Part shown: in pieces, positions 4,416-13,844 of the stretch
Layout: the number at the start of each line of letters is the position of its first letter
Numbering within the stretch: position 1 is the stretch's first letter
NCBI GenBank assembly: GCA_905233725.1
Contig: CAJOEM010000019.1
Span: forward strand, 1 to 36,555
Source of the DNA: an uncultured Synergistales bacterium
Lineage (GTDB): Bacteria; Synergistota; Synergistia; Synergistales; Aminobacteriaceae
DNA length: 36,555 nt
Direction: 5' to 3'
Notes under the pieces: model-generated
Told to the model about the DNA's origin: nothing
Database searches by the model: none
Seen by the model: only the letters and a program-made list of their open reading frames with translations
Translations under genes and position numbers: made by a program

Positions 4416-5222
4416 TCACGCATTATTTAAGCCAGCTCTTCCCCAGAATGTAACGCCACGCTTCGATGCTTTGTAAAAATCGATTATCTGCTGAATCTCC
4501 GGTGAATAATTATCGCGATTCTGAATCACTCTTTCAAGATTCTTCGTGAATAATTCGTCTCGCCTGTACAAGTCACGATAGAAATTATAAATCTCACGGC
4601 GTTTTTCCGAACTGAAGCCCTCGCGCCTCAAGCCAACGTTATTCAAGCCAAGCAGCCTGAACGGAACTCCTCCAGAAAGCGTGAACGGCGGAACATCTTT
4701 CACAACTCTGAATAATCCGCCAATCATCGAGAACGCGCCGATTCTCACGAACTGATGCACACCTGCCATGCCTCCGAATACAACATGATCGCCAACTTCG
4801 ACGAATCCAGACAAGCCGACTTTATTCGCAATCGTTACGTGATTTCCAATTTTGACATTATGAGCCAGGTGCACGCCTTCCATTATGAAGCAATCATCGC
4901 CTACGACAGTCTCACAGTCTTCACCAGTTGCGCGGCTTATCGTGACATTCTCGCGGATCAAATTATTATTGCCAATGCGAACGTAACTTCTCTCATTCTT
5001 GAAGCCGTGATCCTGCGGGTCGCCGCCAATCGTCGTGTGTTCGCAAATCTTGCAGTTCTCGCCAATCGTCACAAGGTCATGAACTCGCACGAATGATTCC
5101 AAAACTGTTCCAGAGCCAATCTCAACTTCAGCGCCAACATAACAGAACGGTCCAATCACAACACCGTCAGAAATTTTCGCGCCATTTTCTACTATTGACG
5201 ACGGATGAATTTTTACACTCAC
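4416..5222 (-). CDS. lpxA: UDP-N-acetylglucosamine O-acyltransferase LpxA
   Basis: First step of lipid A synthesis: moves a 3-hydroxyacyl chain from ACP to the 3-OH of UDP-GlcNAc. The 268-aa protein shows the hexapeptide (left-handed beta helix) repeats from residue 5 to about 190. The catalytic His is in LAHNVKIGNH (about H121; E. coli H125), and the HQFVRIG and LNNVGLRR blocks are typical. The C-terminal helical domain is complete. The start is GTG at 5222, 2 bp after the fabZ stop, with the GGGGG ribosome site inside the fabZ 3' end. It is the last gene of the envelope operon. The closely packed fabZ supplies or consumes hydroxyacyl-ACP at the same branch point. Confidence 0.96.
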   Translation of the reverse strand: MSVKIHPSSIVENGAKISDGVVIGPFCYVGAEVEIGSGTVLESFVRVHDLVTIGENCKICEHTTIGGDPQDHGFKNERSYVRIGNNNLIRENVTISRATGEDCETVVGDDCFIMEGVHLAHNVKIGNHVTIANKVGLSGFVEVGDHVVFGGMAGVHQFVRIGAFSMIGGLFRVVKDVPPFTLSGGVPFRLLGLNNVGLRREGFSSEKRREIYNFYRDLYRRDELFTKNLERVIQNRDNYSPEIQQIIDFYKASKRGVTFWGRAGLNNA

Positions 5223-5224
5223 AA

Positions 5225-5674
5225 TTACGCCCCCTGTTTATCCTTCTCAAGTGTCGAACCCAACACAAACAAAATTTCCGCTTCTGCCGCAACTTCATTT
5301 TCAACATAACTTGTGACTTTCACCTTGCCGAATTTTCCTCGAACTTTCACGAGTTCAGCCTTTGTGAGTAATTTATCGCCGGGTTTGACAGGTCTGCGGA
5401 ATCTCAAGCCATCAGCTCCTGCGAAGAATGCGATTTTGCCTTTCTCTTTAGTTGCCGAGACGATAATTGACGCGACTTGTGCCATACTCTCAAGAATCAT
5501 CGCTCCAGGCATTACAGGCTCACCCGGGAAATGTCCCACGAAAAACGGCTCATCAATCGTAACGTTCTTGTAGCCGATTGCGTGTTTGTCGTCATATTCA
5601 TCGATTCTGTCAACCATCAAGAACGGATAACGCTGTTGCAGAACTTGCATTATTTCCTGTATATCCATGCTCAT
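5225..5674 (-). CDS. fabZ: 3-hydroxyacyl-ACP dehydratase FabZ
   Basis: Dehydrates 3-hydroxyacyl-ACP to trans-2-enoyl-ACP in fatty acid elongation, competing with LpxA and LpxD for substrate. The 149-aa hot-dog protein has the active site GHFPGEPVMPGAMILESMAQ, with H48 and E62 as catalytic pair. The ATG at 5674 is preferred over 5668 because GGGAG lies 13 nt before it. It sits between lpxC and lpxA, as in many diderm genomes, so the fatty-acid/lipid A branch is co-transcribed. Confidence 0.96.
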   Translation of the reverse strand: MSMDIQEIMQVLQQRYPFLMVDRIDEYDDKHAIGYKNVTIDEPFFVGHFPGEPVMPGAMILESMAQVASIIVSATKEKGKIAFFAGADGLRFRRPVKPGDKLLTKAELVKVRGKFGKVKVTSYVENEVAAEAEILFVLGSTLEKDKQGA

Positions 5675-5722: not shown

Positions 5723-6559
5723 TCACTGCTGCTTGATTAAATTTGCTAATTTCAAGTGCAATTCGTGGCCTGCTCTTACGGCGATAACATGTCCGGATAA
5801 TTTACGCCCTAACGAAGCCAAATCTCCGATTAAATCCAGAACTTTATGACGCGCAAACTCATCACTCCAGCGCAAGCCTCCTGACGCAAGAATCTCGCCC
5901 TTCACATCGTCAATCAATATTGCGTTCTCAAGACTGCCGCCCAAAGCCATGCCGTGTGAGCGCAGATACTCAATATCCGACAACATAGCAAAAGTCCTCG
6001 CGCGGGAAATTTCTCCGCAAAAATTCTCTGGGGTGCAATCGAAGTCGAATAATTCCGAGCCGACAATCTTGTAACTCACGCAACACGTAATCAAGAGCCT
6101 GTTACTCGAATCCGGGAAATACGCTGCGAATCGATTGCAATTATTATCATCATGAACTATCAACGGCGAATCTACTCTCAGGAAAGTCTGCTCATCAACA
6201 TCTTCAAGTTCAAGCGAGTGACTGAGAATTTGCTGCGTAATTTTCTCCGCACAGCCATCGAGCGCAGGCATCTCTCCGCCCTCAACAGTAATGCGTGCAT
6301 CTCGCCAGATTCCAAGACCAGCAAACGCAGACAAAACATGCTCACAAGTTCTGACGCGCTCACCATTCTCGAAAATATAATCCGAACCGCGAGCCGAACC
6401 GGAATTTCTCAGGCTGCAAATCTCGGATTCATTTTCTTCATTTTCTCCCGAGCGCAAGAGCACAAATTCAGATTCACACGGCTCAATTTTAACTCTGCAA
6501 TCTTTTCCCGAATGAAGACCTTTACCCGCCAATTCAAACGAGCTAATTATTTTCCGCAA
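5723..6559 (-). CDS. lpxC: UDP-3-O-acyl-N-acetylglucosamine deacetylase LpxC
   Basis: Zinc deacetylase of the committed lipid A step. It shows [14 protein letters not shown] at the N-terminus, TCEHVLSA with the zinc His and catalytic Glu (E73/H74), MPALDG, SRARTFA, the second zinc site [15 protein letters not shown], and the general acid His in GHELHLKL. At 278 aa it is slightly shorter than E. coli LpxC (305). The start is TTG at 6559, which places [18 protein letters not shown] where the family begins. AGGAAG lies upstream inside lpxD, and the two genes overlap by 17 bp, suggesting translational coupling. Confidence 0.95.
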
Positions 6560-7487
6560 GAGCTTTCACTTCCTTTTCGAGCAATTTCACGCGACGATAC
6601 AGAACTGGCAAATCCGCGGACAAAACTAACGCACGTTTCGCATCACTGTGATTTCGCGCAGGGAATCCCGAATACAGCGCTCCAGCCGGGACATCATTCG
6701 TAACGCCCGTTCTCGCTGCCAAAATCGCGCCCTTGCCAATCGTAACATGATCCGTAATGCCAACTTGCACCGAAACAGTAACGTCATCTTCAAGAACCGA
6801 GCTTCCAGCAATTCCCGACATAGAACATATTATGCAATTTTTGCCGATTTTCACGTTATGACCGATTTGAACGTGATTGTCAATTTTGGTTCCCGAGCCG
6901 ACTTGCGTGTCATCAATCGTGCCGCAATCAATCGTTGTGCAAGCTCCAATCTCTACGTCATCGCCGATCTCTACGCCGCCAATCTGAGGAATTTTGCGAA
7001 TCAATCCAGAATCTTTATCTCGAATAAAGCCAAAGCCGTCACAGCCAAGAACTGCTCCCGAATGAATCAAGCAATTTTTCCCGACTTTAACGTTCGACAG
7101 CAAAACTGCATTTGGCTCAATCACACTTCCATCACCGACGACGCAATTCTCCCCGACGAAAGCACCAGTTCCGATTTTCGCACTATCTGAAATAATCGGC
7201 GGATTTTTCGGCAGACTCGCGAATATCTCAAGCAAATGCGTCAACAATTCACGCGGTTTTTCACAAGCGATTCCATCACGCCCGGCTTCAAATAATTCTC
7301 TCGGAGCGACAATCACAACAGAACTTTCGAGCCTGGAAATCTCACGTTCATCCCACAACGCGCAAATCGAATCTTCACGCGCACTTTCCGGACTGGAAAT
7401 CCTGTTCACGATACGCTCAGAATTTCCGACTAAAATTACATTCTCATCATGTTCACTTAATCTATCAAAAATTTCTCGCAAAAGCAT
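6543..7487 (-). CDS. lpxD: UDP-3-O-acylglucosamine N-acyltransferase LpxD
   Basis: Adds the second hydroxyacyl chain (N-linked) in lipid A synthesis. The N-terminal uridine-binding domain spans about residues 1-100. Hexapeptide repeats run from about 103 to 280, with the catalytic His in QIGHNVKIG (about H210). A short C-terminal helix ([13 protein letters not shown]) closes the protein, as in LpxD. The family motif GCDGFGF is present. At 314 aa it is slightly short. The ATG at 7487 follows AGGAG, which overlaps the stop of the preceding outer-membrane protein gene. Here lpxD lies upstream of lpxC, fabZ and lpxA, so all of the early lipid A genes in the window are in one transcript. Confidence 0.95.
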
Positions 7488-7500
7488 TTTACAAAATCTC

Positions 7501-8790
7501 CTACAAAAACCATAATCCTCTCAAGCCGAATTTATCACGATTGCCTTCCTGATAATACAACTCGGTCGAGATATGCTTGTCAATCCTGTAGCCAAAAGCT
7601 CCTTCACTGTTATTGCTTTCGAGATTCCAGCGCCACCAGAAATACGGACGCTTCACCTTTAGCGGCATGTAAGCGAATCTCAGGTAAAACTCGTCATCAG
7701 GAACCTGAAATTCCAATCCAGCCGTGAAATTCTCGAACAGCTCAACACGTATTCCCGGACGCGCTATCACGTCAAAATCATCTAGTTCGACAACAAGCTC
7801 CGTGTAAATTTCCGGTCTGAACTTGTGACCCATCATGTGAAAACTCGTTCGATATGCAAAAAACACTCCGGCTTCAGGATAACGCTCTTTCATTCCGGCG
7901 TATGCTGCGACCCAAACCTGGAACATGAATCTATCACTGTCGATTTTCGCATCGAGATTCGCGACCGGCGCAGGCGTGAAATTCACGTTCACATTCGCTT
8001 TCATGTTTTCGACGGCGTGCTTGTCCTCGAGAAATGCCCGGGACATTTTCTCAATCTCGGCTTTGTGAGCTTCTGCCCATTTAACCGGAACTCCGATTAG
8101 CGGCGACAATTCCGGGATCAATTTTGCTTCGAGATCCGTCCTGAACATTGACGGCACAGTCTGAGAATACAACGACGGCTGGATCGCGAGTATCAACGGC
8201 GTCGATGGTCTGAACGCGAGATTTAATATAACGCTGCTTGAATCGCTCGACAGGAATATTTGCAGGTTAAAATCCCAACCAGGGACATGCTTACTCACGA
8301 GTTTTTCGCACTCAGCCCTGAACGCGTCATCTGCCCAGGTCAGCGCATCCGGCGGCAAAATTTCCAACAATTCCGCAATTTCCTCACGCAAGCCCAAAAT
8401 ATCATTCTCGAACCATTCAGACGTAACGTCACGCAAATCCGGGATCATAATATTAATCTCAGGATTTACAATTCCCGAACCTGTGCGAAAAAATTTCACA
8501 TCACGCGAATCGATCTCGATCTCATAGCCTGTGAACAATCTTGACGCGACGAGCTTCAACGTTGCAGCCCTGTCTTCACGAGACATGTTCTCAGGGATTT
8601 CGCTCCAAATCGCCGAGACACTGCGCAAAACCGGAATCTCAAGCCAATCAGGCAAGCCCAAAATCCGCAAATCCGCAGCAAAACAAATCCGTGCCGAAAA
8701 GCCTGCACAACTAATCAGCACGGATAAAATCGCAATTATTATTAAACTAGAACATATCGCCGAATCCGAAATACGTCTTGCTCTCATCAT
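7501..8790 (-). CDS. Exported protein with a likely C-terminal outer-membrane barrel
   Basis: I do not recognise the family. From the ATG at 8790 (or 8787) the protein starts with a basic stretch and a hydrophobic segment ending CFA-ADL, a good Sec signal peptide. The middle (about residues 100-300) is soluble with alternating amphipathic strands. The last 130 residues have repeated aromatic beta strands, and the chain ends RGLWFL, an aromatic C-terminus typical of BamA substrates. The start codon lies inside the 3' end of bamA; an ATG at 8808 would deepen the overlap to 62 bp. Position between bamA and lpxD suggests an outer-membrane role, perhaps a periplasmic domain joined to a small barrel. 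A function in LPS or protein export is only inferred. Confidence 0.7.
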
Positions 8791-10615
8791 CGCCCTTGGC
8801 GTGGTCAACTCGTAAATTTCCGAACGGCGTTTTCACACGTATTCCAACACCGTAATCATCGTGCAAATCCCCGAAATCGAAATGCTCATCTGCGTTTCCA
8901 ATATCATAAAATCCCACGAGCGTAAACATTTCATTAATCGGAACTCTGAGTTCGAAATTTCCCAAGATGACATTGCTGCCCTCGAATGATCTTGAACTAT
9001 AGCCTCTCAGTGAGTTCATGCCGCCCATCGAGTATCGCGCGAAAACTGGCAACTCGTCCTTTGTTGACGAACCTAATCTGACTCGGGCTGCAAAAATCAT
9101 CGGGTTATCATCTGTCCAGCCTCCGTCCATGTCAATTATCCCGTCAAAAACTTTATTCAAAACAGCGTAATATCTCGCCTGAGTCCAGTACTTCAAGTAA
9201 TCGTAATCTCCGCCCAATCCGTGAATCGCTTGTTCAAGTGTTATCTCCCAAATTAGTCCCTTCGAATATGAGACATACGGATCGCGTTTGTCATACGTAA
9301 TTTGCAATTCAATCGTTTGATTCGTGCCGTCCCAGTCCGTCAAGTCGTTTATGTAGCCGGGAATTGCTGCGTGAATGTCATCGTATTTAGCTTCCTGTCG
9401 CCTGAACGTCAAGAACCAGCTCCAATCTTCGTTCGAGAATTTCTTGCCGAAGCCCGCGAAAATGTTCCATAATTCCTCGTCAAATTCGAACTGTCTTCTG
9501 CCGCGCCTGTAATAATATCTGTCGTTGTAACGCAGGAATCTCGCACCGACTCTCCACGCGTAAGTTTTCGAATCCATGTATGGACTTGAAAGCGTTGCCC
9601 AATACGAAGCCTCATCGCCCTCATCGAAGCCAATTTCAAATCTATAGCCTTTGCCCCACAAATTCGAATCTCCATACGTCAATCCGCCGGACAATCCAGA
9701 TTCAGAACCGTAAGCCAAGTTCAAGCCGACTGAAGCTGTGCGTTTTTCCTTCACCGTTAAGATCACATCAACAGTATCGTCAGAATCTTCCGGTACATCA
9801 AAGCCTACATTCACGTCCTCGAAATATCCCAGCCCCTGTAATTTTCCCAACTGATGCCTGAAATGCGTTACGTTGAAAATATCGCCCTTCTGAAGCTTAA
9901 TCTCGCGACGAATTACGTAAGTCTTGGTCTTGACATTTCCCTGAATGATCACGTCGCCGACTTTTGGCTCAAGAATCGTAACGTAGATATTTCCGCCAGA
10001 AATTTGCACGTCAGAAACTCGAACCATAACGTAGCCGTCTTTGTGATAGCGTTCCTGAATTCTGTCCAGGTCATTCTTGAAAAACACGCGATTAAAAACC
10101 GTTCCGACTTGCGAGAAGACTTCTTTCATGAGCTGCTCGTCCGAATATTTCGTGTTGCCCGAGAAAGATATGCTCTCAATTTTGGGATTTTCCTGCACTG
10201 AGAACATAACCGAAACTCCGCCGCCCTCATCACGCACATCAACGTCAACGAACGAGAAGAAGCCCTGGTTATAAATATTCTCGATGTCCTTTTGCAGCAA
10301 ATCGCGATTCAAAACACTTCCGGCTTTCGTGTCAACAACGTTCAGAATATATTCCGACGCGATCTGATCATTGCCCAAGACTCCGACAGACGTAACTTGC
10401 CTTTGTGATTCTTGATTTTCATTTTGCGAGTCAGCCTGAGAATTTTCCTGAACTGCCGGACTTGCTGCACTTGCTGCCCACGGATTGCCGCTAGTTGCGC
10501 GAGAATTTCCCCAACCCGGATTGACGCTCATGTCGCCATCTGCTGCGTAAATTGCGCTTCCCGATAACGCTAAAATCAACGCGAGCGATATTGCGAATAA
10601 ATTCCTGTGTTTCAA
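8747..10615 (-). CDS. bamA: Outer-membrane assembly factor BamA
   Basis: Omp85-family barrel that inserts beta-barrel proteins into the outer membrane. A signal peptide (1-24, cleaved after IYA) is followed by a Gln/Ser-rich linker. I then count three POTRA domains (about 73-143, 144-217, 218-290) instead of the five of E. coli. The 16-strand barrel follows, with the lid motif LRGYSSRSFEG and a terminal Phe (FGFGDMF). The start is TTG at 10615 with AAAGGAGAG 11 nt upstream; no nearby ATG fits. It lies in the middle of the envelope operon and overlaps the next gene. The low POTRA count resembles other deep-branching diderms. It could be a TamA paralogue, but the lpx context favours BamA. Confidence 0.93.
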   Translation of the reverse strand: MKHRNLFAISLALILALSGSAIYAADGDMSVNPGWGNSRATSGNPWAASAASPAVQENSQADSQNENQESQRQVTSVGVLGNDQIASEYILNVVDTKAGSVLNRDLLQKDIENIYNQGFFSFVDVDVRDEGGGVSVMFSVQENPKIESISFSGNTKYSDEQLMKEVFSQVGTVFNRVFFKNDLDRIQERYHKDGYVMVRVSDVQISGGNIYVTILEPKVGDVIIQGNVKTKTYVIRREIKLQKGDIFNVTHFRHQLGKLQGLGYFEDVNVGFDVPEDSDDTVDVILTVKEKRTASVGLNLAYGSESGLSGGLTYGDSNLWGKGYRFEIGFDEGDEASYWATLSSPYMDSKTYAWRVGARFLRYNDRYYYRRGRRQFEFDEELWNIFAGFGKKFSNEDWSWFLTFRRQEAKYDDIHAAIPGYINDLTDWDGTNQTIELQITYDKRDPYVSYSKGLIWEITLEQAIHGLGGDYDYLKYWTQARYYAVLNKVFDGIIDMDGGWTDDNPMIFAARVRLGSSTKDELPVFARYSMGGMNSLRGYSSRSFEGSNVILGNFELRVPINEMFTLVGFYDIGNADEHFDFGDLHDDYGVGIRVKTPFGNLRVDHAKGDDESKTYFGFGDMF

Positions 10616-10645: not shown

Positions 10646-11284
10646 CTATTTATTAATTACGACATAACTTTCGTTACGCAATGCTCTTTCGCCAGTTTGA
10701 ATCAACGAGAATACTTTATCATAACCAAGCTGATTCGTCTGCGAAGTTGTGGTCTTTTTCGCATCGGATTTCGCGTTCGATTCCGATTTTGCGTTATTAA
10801 CCTGGGTTTTCGCGAGAACTTTCTTGCGTCTGGAACTTGAACTCGGGTTCGAATTTGATTTTGCAGGAGTAATTTTCCTGAATGTTTCGTGTTCGTGTTT
10901 AACTTGAGAGACCTGAGATACTTGAGAGATTTTTGCGGGTTCAGGCTCTGCTGCTACCTGTGAATTATCTGCTGGAACAAGATTTGTCACAACATCGCGC
11001 GAAATCGGAACAACTGCGAGTAATATTATCAACGCTGCCAAAGAAATCACACGCAAACATGACGCGAGAAAATACGCTGGATTAAATTCCGGATTTGCAT
11101 GTTTCAACGGCTGAACTCGCTGCCAGACATCACGGCGCAGAACTTCCAAATCCGCGCGCGCACACTCAGCGTCCATCAAAGCATTTTCCATCGCACCGGA
11201 CGAGTAAGAATTTCTCAAACGCTCAAGCCAGCGAATTATTCCTGTGATTCGCTTATCGACTTTCTGTTCAACATTCACGCTCAA
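10646..11284 (-). CDS. Single-pass membrane protein, candidate anti-sigma factor
   Basis: I do not recognise a family. The 212-aa protein has a charged, helical, probably cytoplasmic N-terminus (about 1-70), one strong membrane segment (about 71-93, SLAALIILLAVV) and a low-complexity linker rich in Ser, Lys, Asn and Gln, including SQVSQVSQV. A short conserved-looking tail (GYDKVFSLIQTGERALRNES) ends it. The start is TTG at 11284, 8 nt after GGAGGTG. It begins 29 bp after the sigma-factor stop. A sigma gene followed by a single-TM protein with a small cytosolic domain is the usual layout of a sigma/anti-sigma pair; I infer that role. No HxxxCxxC zinc motif is visible. A cell-envelope scaffold role is the alternative. 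Confidence 0.6.
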   Translation of the reverse strand: MSVNVEQKVDKRITGIIRWLERLRNSYSSGAMENALMDAECARADLEVLRRDVWQRVQPLKHANPEFNPAYFLASCLRVISLAALIILLAVVPISRDVVTNLVPADNSQVAAEPEPAKISQVSQVSQVKHEHETFRKITPAKSNSNPSSSSRRKKVLAKTQVNNAKSESNAKSDAKKTTTSQTNQLGYDKVFSLIQTGERALRNESYVVINK

Positions 11285-11313
11285 ATTTCAACACCTCCTG
11301 CGAATCAAGTCAA

Positions 11314-11910
11314 TCACGCACCCGTAACAGGCGCAACGTTATCAAGATTATCGAGATTCAGCCAGTGGCGGATTTTCGCAATAGCTGACCTTCTCAATCT
11401 GTACACGTGACTCACGTCCAATTTCTGTTCAATCGCAACGTCTTGAGGCTTCTTGCCCTCGAAGAACAGCGCATTCACAACATCAGCTTCTCTGCCGCGT
11501 AATTTCGCGATACTTTCCGAGACATCGATCCAGTCTTCGTTATCATTTCTTGCGAACTCATCGGAATTTGACGAGTTATAATCAACTTGCAGCCATTCAT
11601 CAGGAACAGGCATCGGAGCGCGTCGTTCTGAACGTTCGAGCATGTTTATAATCTGCCCGTGAATCTTGTGATACGCAAACGTTGAGAACTTGAAGCCTTT
11701 ACTTGGGTCGAATTTGTCAACGGCCTGTATCAGCGCGAGCATTCCTTCTTGGATCATATCCTGACGAAGCTCTGCATTTGCTCCGACGTGAATTTTCCCT
11801 GCAATCCAGAACACCAGCGGACGATACGCAACGATCAATTCTTCACGCGCATCGAAATCCCCATTTGTACACAGCTCCCATAGATTTTTCTCGTAATCAG
11901 GGTCTAACAT
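11314..11910 (-). CDS. RNA polymerase sigma-70 family factor
   Basis: Alternative sigma factor of about 198 aa. Region 2 is clear: LIVAYRPLVFWIAGKI, then DMIQEGMLALIQAVDKFDPSKGFKFSTFAYHKIHGQI, the core-binding and -10-recognition helices. A short region 3 (PDEW...) and region 4 follow (LRGREADVVNALFFEGKKPQDVAIEQKLDVSHVYRLR, a helix-turn-helix). Region 1.1 is absent. It resembles the FliA/WhiG or SigF-like group more than ECF factors. I prefer ATG at 11910; TTG at 11934 is in frame but lacks an upstream ribosome site. A GGGGGGAG site lies 14 nt before the ATG, inside the end of the phosphatase gene. It is second in the bamA-lpx operon, so it may govern envelope genes. Confidence 0.88.
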   Translation of the reverse strand: MLDPDYEKNLWELCTNGDFDAREELIVAYRPLVFWIAGKIHVGANAELRQDMIQEGMLALIQAVDKFDPSKGFKFSTFAYHKIHGQIINMLERSERRAPMPVPDEWLQVDYNSSNSDEFARNDNEDWIDVSESIAKLRGREADVVNALFFEGKKPQDVAIEQKLDVSHVYRLRRSAIAKIRHWLNLDNLDNVAPVTGA

Positions 11911-11918
11911 TTCAGAAT

Positions 11919-12644
11919 TTACATCTCCCCCCAAATCGGCAAATTCTCGCCAAAACTTCCGGCTCTAACGTGCAAATCGTCATTCGAGAACACCATGCAC
12001 GCCCGACCATTTCGCATTTCTATGCCACTCATCGCACAATTCGAAACGTCCATGTTCCAGACATTATGCGGATTCAATCCCAGAAACACACCGTACAGCG
12101 CACGCATAATTCCCCCGTGAGAAACTACGACTATATTCTTGTGATTCGCGTTCAGAATTATTCGCATTGCCTCGGACAATCGTTCGGAAAGCTGCTGCCA
12201 ATCTTCGGCTTTATCCGGCGGATTGAAAAACGGGTCTGCTCGCCAACGTGAAAAGAATTCGTGATTAGCTTCCTGAATCCCTTTAATCGACATTCCCTCC
12301 CAAATTCCGAAATTGATTTCTTCGAGTTGCGGGAGGATTACTGGTTCGAGATTTTTCGTGTCAGCGATTTCGCGTGCTGTGAACAGAGCTCGTTCGAGAG
12401 GACTTGAATAAACGATTTCGAATCCCCAACGTGATAATCGTTTTGCAAGAGATTTCGCTTGAGATTTTCCTGCTTCAGTCAGGGGCGTGTCGGTACGTCC
12501 TTGAAACCTCATTTCCTGATTCCATTCAGTTTGACCATGACGTGCCAAAATTATTCTGCATGGCTGCTCACGTTTTTGGGTAAGCGATTCTGCGGAAGTA
12601 TCAGTTTCGTAATTATAAGTATTTTCAGGCGCATCATTAGTCAT
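11919..12644 (-). CDS. Histidine phosphatase family protein (phosphoglycerate mutase-like)
   Basis: Cytoplasmic phosphatase of the branch 2 histidine (dPGM-like) family. ILARHGQTEWNQEMRFQGRTD contains the phospho-acceptor His (RHG) and binding Arg. LERALFTA, LEEINFGIWEGM (acid/base Glu) and VVVSHGGIMRAL (second His) follow in order. The N-terminal 28 residues are extra, Ser/Thr/Glu-rich and poorly ordered. Similar proteins are annotated as CobC (alpha-ribazole phosphatase) or GpmB, and the sequence does not decide between them. The ATG at 12644 follows GGGGGA. It is the first gene of the minus-strand envelope operon and overlaps the upstream untranslated part of the sigma gene. The promoter lies just upstream (12699-12707). 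Confidence 0.85.
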   Translation of the reverse strand: MTNDAPENTYNYETDTSAESLTQKREQPCRIILARHGQTEWNQEMRFQGRTDTPLTEAGKSQAKSLAKRLSRWGFEIVYSSPLERALFTAREIADTKNLEPVILPQLEEINFGIWEGMSIKGIQEANHEFFSRWRADPFFNPPDKAEDWQQLSERLSEAMRIILNANHKNIVVVSHGGIMRALYGVFLGLNPHNVWNMDVSNCAMSGIEMRNGRACMVFSNDDLHVRAGSFGENLPIWGEM

Positions 12645-12698
12645 ATCTGTAAAATCCCCCTTGAAATTTGAATCAGTATTTATAATTATTTAATTGCA

Positions 12699-12707
12699 AT
12701 TATATCA
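12699..12707 (-). promoter_or_regulatory. Extended -10 promoter of the envelope operon
   Basis: On the minus strand TGATATAAT is a perfect extended -10 (TG-N-TATAAT), about 55 bp before the histidine phosphatase start. The upstream side is A/T-rich with no clear -35. It is the only good promoter I can see ahead of the nine-gene run that ends with lpxA. Confidence 0.55.
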
Positions 12708-12743
12708 TGCAAAATTTCATAATTTCATAACACGGAGACAAAT

Positions 12744-13844
12744 ATGAATAATAATGCGCAAAAGTTTTTCAGGCGAATTTCTCTAGTAATTACGATAATA
12801 ATTCTCATCGCGATTCCGTTCTCAAATGCGAGTGCGAAATTGCGTGCGATTTCTCAAGAGAGATTCTTGATGGACACGATTATGCAACTCAAAATTAACG
12901 TTGACGATTCGATTGCGGATTTACAGGCGCAAAATATCCTGAACTCGGCGTTTGAGTTTCTCGCAAAAATAGATTCTTTGCTGTCGATATATAATTCTGA
13001 GAGCGAAATTTCACGTGTGAACGCAAATTCCGGGAAATCTGCTGTGAAAGTTGACGCGATTACACTCGAATCAGTTTTACAGGCGAGAAAATTCTATGAT
13101 ATTAGCGAGGGCGTGTTCAATCCGTTAATCGGCTCTGTGACGAAGCTCTGGAAAATCAATCGTCATGACGGGACTATCCCATCGAAAAGCGATCTTGAAT
13201 CAGCAATCGAACTCTCAAATATTACAAATCTTGAATTGACGCGCGAACCTGAACCGGAAATTTTCCTGAAATCCGCGGGATGTGTGATTGACCTGGGAGG
13301 CATTGCGAAGGGCTTTGCGTCCGAAAAAGTTGCTGAGTATATACGCTCAACAGGAGTGAAATCTGCGTTAATAAATCTTGGTGGGAATGTTTACGTAATC
13401 GGGAAGAATATTCGCGAAACGAATTGGGTGATAGGCGTTCAGAATCCGTTATCGCCGCGCAATAAGCCAGCGTTAGTTTTGGGAGTTAGTGACTGTGCAG
13501 TTGTAACGTCAGGGAATTACGAGCGCTACAAGATAATTGACGGGAAGAGATACTCGCATTTCTTTGATCCGATGACTGGTGAATCTGTGAACAGCAATCT
13601 GCTATCCGTGACGATAATTTCGCCGGACGGTTCGATGAGTGATGCTTTAGCTACGGCGTTTATGATTTCTGGATTTGAGCGTTCAGTCGAGATTTTGCGC
13701 AAAATGAATCCCGCGCCTCATGCAGTATTCATTCAGCAATCCGAATCTGAATCTGCATCCAATGACGGGGGACTTGTGATATTTGCGGACGAAGCTTTGA
13801 GAGAAAAAATTATTTCGTCGGAATTTCCGGTGAAGTATTACTAG
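12744..13844 (+). CDS. apbE: ApbE-type FAD:protein FMN transferase
   Basis: Exported flavin transferase that attaches FMN covalently to Thr/Ser of periplasmic or membrane redox proteins such as RnfG/NqrC. After a signal peptide (cleavage near NASA-KLRA) it shows the family order: FLMDTIMQL; the N-terminal helix ending LLSIYNSESEISRVN; SEGVFNPLIGSV; DLGGIAKGFASEKV (FAD site); SALINLGGNVYVIG; FFDPMTG; and the metal-binding SDALATAFMISG. The 366 residues match the usual size. ATG at 12744 follows CGGAG. It is divergent from the envelope operon and convergent with the coiled-coil gene, whose stop is only 3 bp away. Targets such as Rnf subunits are not in the window. Confidence 0.93.
   Translation: MNNNAQKFFRRISLVITIIILIAIPFSNASAKLRAISQERFLMDTIMQLKINVDDSIADLQAQNILNSAFEFLAKIDSLLSIYNSESEISRVNANSGKSAVKVDAITLESVLQARKFYDISEGVFNPLIGSVTKLWKINRHDGTIPSKSDLESAIELSNITNLELTREPEPEIFLKSAGCVIDLGGIAKGFASEKVAEYIRSTGVKSALINLGGNVYVIGKNIRETNWVIGVQNPLSPRNKPALVLGVSDCAVVTSGNYERYKIIDGKRYSHFFDPMTGESVNSNLLSVTIISPDGSMSDALATAFMISGFERSVEILRKMNPAPHAVFIQQSESESASNDGGLVIFADEALREKIISSEFPVKYY

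Follow-up and report, generated by a model that had tools for sequence, protein, structure and literature searches.

A sigma factor, a single-pass membrane protein and a predicted outer-membrane barrel around bamA in Synergistota: a candidate trans-envelope signalling unit

Gene content and organization of the locus

The window analysed here is an entire contig of 36,555 bases from an uncultured Synergistales bacterium with a genome of 1.87 Mb. Its minus strand carries, in order, an alpha-ribazole-phosphatase-like gene, a sigma-70 family factor, a single-transmembrane (single-TM) protein (called 'the partner'), bamA, a further gene (called 'omp3'), lpxD, lpxC, fabZ and lpxA. The features discussed below are as follows (window positions):

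12699-12707, minus strand: candidate extended -10 promoter of the operon, TGATATAAT, before the alpha-ribazole-phosphatase-like gene
11919-12644, minus strand: alpha-ribazole-phosphatase-like gene, upstream neighbour of sigma
11314-11910, minus strand: sigma-70 family factor, about 198 aa, start chosen by aligned relatives
11623-11838, minus strand: sigma2 (region 2) of the sigma factor
11365-11511, minus strand: sigma4 (region 4) of the sigma factor
10646-11284, minus strand: partner, single-TM, 212 aa, candidate membrane-anchored sigma regulator
11111-11257, minus strand: presumed cytoplasmic part of the partner, conserved two-helix hairpin (RWLER...ECARAELE..R)
11006-11071, minus strand: transmembrane helix of the partner, approximate, read from the sequence
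10673-10723, minus strand: conserved C-terminal motif of the partner, here YDKVFSLIQTGERALRN
8747-10615, minus strand: bamA, neighbour, kept where sigma, partner and omp3 are lost
7501-8808, minus strand: omp3, POTRA-like N-terminal part and short beta barrel (about 10 strands) by prediction, without Pfam family
6543-7487, minus strand: lpxD, next after omp3

The last three genes on this strand are, to judge by gene order, presumably lpxC (5723-6559), fabZ (5225-5674) and lpxA (4416-5222). An earlier, sequence-only reading of this DNA had described a sigma factor and a membrane protein followed by bamA and the lipid A genes. The pair is real, with both open reading frames at the places claimed on the minus strand; the sigma frame spans 11314-11934, within which aligned relatives favour the ATG at 11910. 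The remainder of the description was correct in that bamA adjoins the partner, but the gene after bamA is omp3, which is no lpx gene and the frame of which overlaps the end of bamA, and lpxD comes only after it.

Distribution and conservation of gene order in Synergistota

A survey of 185 Synergistota genomes (G000-G184; 62 genera, 12 families; sigma threshold E <= 1e-25) detected sigma in 156, the partner in 159 and omp3 in 156 genomes, with 6, 9 and 9 genomes in the three presence scans assigned by subtraction from the full set. The numbers were 104, 105 and 102, respectively, among the 115 genomes with a completeness of 90% or more and a contamination of 5% or less. Gene order was scored in 164 loci, some genomes being scanned twice. 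Sigma and partner were adjacent on one strand in all 152 loci where both were found, and partner and bamA shared a strand in all of 150, with a distance from the partner to the matched bamA domain of less than 300 bases in 127 loci and 300-787 bases in the remaining 23; bamA and omp3 were at most 300 bases apart in 137/138 loci. The earlier reading had proposed conservation of the gene pair as a check, to be failed if the membrane protein were conserved without the sigma gene: the two genes were always adjacent and were lost together, and no uncut locus examined held the membrane protein without sigma. Apparent discordance in nine genomes (G022, G042, G084, G086, G103, G137, G153, G175 and G179) was explained by contig ends, and in G085 the end of the partner was visible beside unreadable bases at the locus. 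Co-occurrence of the three genes was uncertain in G068, G081, G136 and G138, and locus-level inspection covered families other than f11. In family f12 (G065), sigma, a partner-like frame, bamA and omp3 followed one another in order, the partner being missed by the profile and its layout seen by eye.

The sigma factor was found in 23 named relatives at 62-74% identity, all of them Synergistaceae or Synergistales assemblies with mostly ruminant titles; beyond Synergistota, the search consisted of one close-relative scan of genome contigs with sigma as the query. Neither TamB (12/22 genomes) nor flagellin (18/22 genomes) was associated with the unit of sigma, partner and omp3, each occurring with and without it. 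No description of the unit was found in the literature searched, which consisted mostly of titles and the openings of abstracts.

The sigma factor

The sigma factor of the window matched Pfam Sigma70_r2 (E 4.3e-17) and NCBIfam TIGR02937 (E 2.7e-25, above the family cut-off). Across 25 aligned sigma members, Sigma70_r2 was present in 25, Sigma70_r4 in 23, Sigma70_r4_2 in 11 and PF07638 in 3, and none of the 10 Pfam families matched at E <= 0.01 was a region 3 family. TIGR02937 also matched all 25 members, although it is a superfamily model that scores housekeeping-type and FliA-like genes higher. Regions 2 and 4 with region 3 absent are the layout of ECF (group IV) factors. After the broad TIGR02937, the best NCBIfam models were WhiG, SigG and FliA, all over region 2. 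Membership in the WhiG/FliA families themselves was rejected, the window sigma lacking region 3 and scoring far below the family cut-offs (71.9 bits against 343 for WhiG, 62.6 against 189.6 for FliA_WhiG). Judged by sequence matches, the protein combines the architecture of an ECF sigma factor with a region 2 like that of WhiG/FliA. The statement that it is not of ECF type therefore holds for the affinities of region 2 and fails for the sigma2-sigma4 layout.

Only three loci in the genome of the window passed the TIGR02937 cut-off, namely a housekeeping-type gene, a FliA-like gene (both labels being read from frame length) and the sigma of the unit, which is thus the only sigma-70 gene above the model cut-off besides the other two. 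G009, G019 and G048 likewise had three such loci, and G043, G049 and G141 had more; among genomes without the unit's sigma, G010, G024 and G030 had two and G038 and G039 had one. In six loci of other families (L098, L100, L101, L103, L106 and L111), another sigma gene, 245-271 aa long and probably FliA-like, was located some 5-10 kb away from the unit.

The partner protein

Alignments of 23 diverse members and of 154 partner frames (147 distinct sequences) gave a common layout of a conserved N-terminal part, presumably cytoplasmic, followed by a hydrophobic stretch and, after a variable linker, the C-terminal motif L..LhQxGxRALR. The single hydrophobic stretch (residues ~72-93, read from the sequence) bears out the earlier description of one TM segment and a cytoplasmic part of about 70 residues, and AlphaFold modelled the cytoplasmic part as a two-helix hairpin (pLDDT ~75). 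The periplasmic tail had been called low-complexity, which is true of the linker but not of the conserved motif at its end. The window partner was without a Pfam family, and among 25 members no family occurred more than once at E <= 0.1. A juxtamembrane VTxDE...LR..LS motif was seen in most rows outside the rumen genus; in the partners of that genus (window 10723-11006 and relatives) most of it is missing, while most other-family rows keep it.

The C-terminal motif was uninterrupted in 152/154 frames, and the two exceptions belong to genomes that have lost omp3. A first, too strict pattern recovered 135 of the 154 frames, most of the 19 misses showing the motif by eye. By a gap-aware leave-one-out score the two exceptional frames were the lowest (L064, -53.2, exaggerated by its tail having been left unaligned; L066, -14.8), the next being 18.8. 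In an ungapped sliding scan they scored 6.6 and 6.3, respectively, against 21.0 for the next and a median of 40.3; only L101 (-16.0) and L232 (-14.8) fell below them, because their motif runs to the very end of the protein, where the scanning window does not fit. Remnants of the motif persist in L064 and L066, split by short insertions.

The omp3 protein

The AlphaFold model of omp3 (pLDDT 90.7, pTM 0.81) confidently predicts POTRA-like domains and a short barrel. By eye, the model contained a beta-alpha-alpha-beta-beta unit at residues 3-77, another at ~164-247 and, from residue 250 to the C-terminus, about ten strands forming the barrel, and the protein is predicted to lie in the outer membrane. 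Window omp3 had no Pfam family, OMP_b-brl reaching at best 0.01 and occurring in 2/22 members. The best Foldseek matches of the model were BamA and TamA, with an E-value of 3.3e-9 but TM-scores of about 0.2. Structure comparison of the barrel (residues 247-391, excluding the POTRA part) gave Z 11.8 against a designed ten-strand transmembrane barrel (131 residues aligned, rmsd 3.3) and Z 8.6 to 10 against KdgM, PcoB, NanC and OMPLA, but also Z ~10 against soluble nitrobindin-type barrels.

A possible resemblance to Omp85 proteins (BamA, TamA) would lie in the predicted POTRA-like domains before a barrel and in the top Foldseek matches. Omp85 barrels have 16 strands, whereas about 10 were read in omp3; none of 22 omp3 sequences had an Omp85 Pfam match at E <= 0.1, and comparison with a local BamA profile gave no sequence relation (hhalign probability 0.7%).

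Joint losses of the unit and separate loss of omp3

Sigma, partner and omp3 were all missing from 21 genomes, of which 15 were uninformative (bamA not found in 14, and weak fragments in G126). In the other six (G010, G024, G030, G038, G039 and G141) the bamA-lpxD region was intact without the three genes, and in two of the sigma-less genomes the alpha-ribazole-phosphatase-like gene is still a neighbour of bamA. The joint losses corresponded to six state changes on a bamA tree, or to five if the G010/G030 pair, which the tree does not resolve, counts once; the tree was a quick one, with long branches flagged for G038, G039 and G141, three of the six sigma-less rows. As the lost genes stood on both sides of a bamA that was retained, a single simple deletion cannot explain each joint loss, and a shared function of the three genes can.

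Loss of omp3 alone was seen in G032 (L066) and G017 (L064 and L145), where lpxD follows bamA directly, and sigma and partner are kept. Since the two genomes are close relatives, this probably represents a single event. Their partners are the only two of 154 without an uninterrupted C-terminal motif, with hairpin and sigma intact; in this lineage the hairpin was thus retained alongside sigma, and decay of the tail accompanied the loss of omp3.

Tests of sigma-partner interaction

Docking was modelled on a read-through chain built from L068, in which sigma, its stop codon as Gly, the natural intergenic stretch and the partner up to the membrane helix were joined (alignment of 37 rows, 5 paired). 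AlphaFold returned a pLDDT of 71.6 and a pTM of 0.39, and the docking of sigma and hairpin was not confident. Mean-field couplings were computed per pair (Neff 56 to 109) and jointly (115 loci, or 86 without the rumen genus). Per pair, sigma and the partner hairpin scored 1.03, while 12 of the 13 other block pairs lay between 0.68 and 0.92 and BamA with the C-terminal motif reached 1.05; jointly, sigma and hairpin scored 0.31 and 0.53 with 115 loci and 0.18 and 0.41 with 86. The coupling between the membrane region of the partner and omp3 dropped from 1.84 to 1.28, less than the 1.32 of cobC-omp3, when the rumen genus was left out and the region slightly extended. Direct-coupling analysis gave no convincing sigma-partner excess over the control pairs. 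An M50 protease was encoded in 6/6 genomes tested, which is weak evidence, because all 14 control genomes encoded one too.

The operon promoter and the targets of sigma

Only one extended -10 (12699-12707) was found on the minus strand of ~11275-13000, and here the alpha-ribazole-phosphatase-like gene abuts sigma, so that the sigma-membrane protein pair does not strictly head the operon in the window as had been claimed. The claim fares better outside the rumen genus, where an extended -10 (TGNTANNAT) stood before sigma in 73/104 loci (shuffled mean 3.6), compared with 4/39 loci inside it (shuffled 1.8); all shuffles were single-base shuffles. The element persists before bamA in four of the six sigma-less genomes, which is suggestive and not proof, since 13 of 75 other intergenic starts in the loci have one on the right strand (12 on the wrong strand; shuffled 4.0). 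A sigma factor without region 3 is not expected to read the TG element. Given this, and the retention of the extended -10 in sigma-less genomes, transcription of the operon probably depends on the housekeeping sigma, and the targets of the unit's sigma probably lie elsewhere. Autoregulation by sigma, which the four sigma-less genomes with the element leave unsupported, is unlikely. For the same reason, the earlier suggestion of a regulatory system for outer-membrane building finds no support as direct control of the bamA-lpx genes by sigma. No regulon or sigma-specific promoter was found in the present analysis.

Comparison with known systems

In the FecA-FecR-FecI and FoxA-FoxR-FoxI systems, too, genes for an outer-membrane protein, a sigma factor with regions 2 and 4 and a single-TM regulator whose C-terminal part is periplasmic lie together, and all three kinds of gene were found here at one locus, the outer-membrane location of omp3 being predicted. 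In a report on FoxA-FoxR-FoxI (PMC11637429), the signalling domain of the transducer is described as binding the C-terminal domain of FoxR and protecting it from proteolysis. In contrast to those systems, 22 omp3 sequences had no Pfam match to a TonB-dependent receptor or signalling domain and 25 partners none to FecR (both at E <= 0.1), the periplasmic end of the partner is a short motif, and the genes of the unit flank bamA. The proposed chain resembles FecA-FecR-FecI in its layout and not in its components.

The RpoE-RseA-DegS-RseP system is an envelope stress response with a single-TM regulator beside sigma. The unit shares with it a single-TM partner beside sigma, a possible link to an outer-membrane protein and the presence of a site-2 protease. 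It differs in that no RseA-type domain was among the Pfam matches of the partner, region 2 of its sigma is nearer to WhiG/FliA/SigG, and its operon promoter is apparently independent of its own sigma. RsiG is described in PMC8325347 as an antiparallel coiled-coil with the c-di-GMP motif E(X)3S(X)2R(X)3Q(X)3D. The likeness to RsiG-WhiG lies in region 2 (nearest to WhiG/SigG/FliA), in the predicted hairpin of the partner's cytoplasmic part and in Foldseek, which returned RsiG-WhiG entries for the model of the unit's sigma; unlike RsiG, the partner is membrane-anchored, and unlike WhiG the unit's sigma is without region 3. Among 154 partner frames the RsiG motif occurred exactly in none and with one mismatch in one (two after shuffling).

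Zinc anti-sigma (ZAS) factors carry the motif HxxxCxxC. It was present in 0/154 partner frames, which rejects the partner as a ZAS protein and agrees with the sequence-only reading. RsgI-type anti-sigma factors have an N-terminal Pfam family (RsgI N-terminal), to which 25 partners had no match at E <= 0.1, a result compatible with remote kinship. It is plausible that the unit is a new form of trans-envelope sigma signalling outside the FecIRA, RseA, ZAS and RsiG families.

A proposed relay and its alternatives

Since sigma, partner and omp3 flank bamA across most Synergistota and are lost together, they may make up a chain by which signals pass from the outer membrane to transcription, a reading to which we give a probability of roughly one half. 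It is supported by the conserved gene order, the joint loss and the separate fates of the two partner ends in one lineage, and by the predicted folds of omp3 and sigma2. Direct contacts of the partner with sigma at one end and with omp3 at the other, the direction of the signal, proteolysis and a regulon are steps that we infer. In such a chain, omp3, as an outer-membrane barrel with POTRA-like periplasmic domains, would act as sensor or dock, to which a long flexible linker would let the C-terminal motif of the partner extend through the periplasm, and the cytoplasmic hairpin would hold or tune sigma. A change in the contact between omp3 and the tail, reflecting barrel assembly or the state of the outer membrane, might then alter the partner or lead to its cleavage (an RseP-type site-2 protease is encoded), whereupon sigma would be freed to switch on genes elsewhere.

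The joint losses would fit any functional dependence, including one in which sigma and partner are a sigma/regulator pair, the C-terminal tail responds to some other periplasmic cue, and omp3, as an output or client, depends on the sigma regulon. That account, which we consider unlikely, would also accommodate G017 and G032, which keep sigma and partner without omp3; it sits less well with the interruption of the C-terminal motif only where omp3 is gone, and with the overlap of omp3 and the end of bamA, given which a separate sigma promoter for omp3 has no evident place outside bamA. The same lineage bears on a second alternative, that the partner works with omp3 to connect the two membranes, inner and outer, as a TonB-like or scaffold protein, beside an independent sigma. 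A membrane helix, a long charged linker and a conserved C-terminal motif do recall periplasm-spanning tethers, and neither the read-through fold (pTM 0.39) nor the couplings gave a sigma interaction signal. Yet with omp3 gone and the motif interrupted, G017 and G032 still have the cytoplasmic hairpin and sigma, and sigma and partner were never apart at the uncut loci examined, so that we hold a tether with an unconnected sigma to be distinctly improbable. Gene order in the bamA region is strongly conserved in the phylum, and the three genes could be plain operon neighbours held by that order without shared function; with some five or six losses each removing sigma, partner and omp3 on both sides of a kept bamA, we regard this as very unlikely.

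Returning to the signalling chain, a more far-reaching version may be advanced tentatively, with the odds somewhat against it. Synergistota might possess their own outer-membrane-to-sigma relay, in which a small POTRA-like barrel protein and a sigma lacking region 3 are linked by a single-TM regulator that binds sigma through a new helical-hairpin domain and ends in a short C-terminal tether motif. Such a relay would be wired into the bamA operon, report on outer-membrane protein assembly, be ancestral to the phylum and have no sequence kinship to RseA or FecR. To our knowledge, little is known of outer-membrane surveillance in bacteria outside the well-studied groups. Three genes that flank bamA phylum-wide, with clean losses in nature and one case in which the two ends of the unit have come apart, offer a candidate open to direct testing.

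Variation in BamA

The BamA end branches of L091 (G038), L092 (G039) and L138 (G141), all three sigma-less, were among the longest in the bamA tree, at 0.72, 0.58 and 0.43, respectively, compared with a median of 0.096, as if BamA had changed faster in these genomes after loss of the unit. At one further locus (L078:7128-7922, G031), a second, partial bamA-like ORF of 264 aa lies between the partner and the full bamA; its 51% identity to BamA over query residues 73-294 marks it as a duplicated POTRA-bearing fragment.
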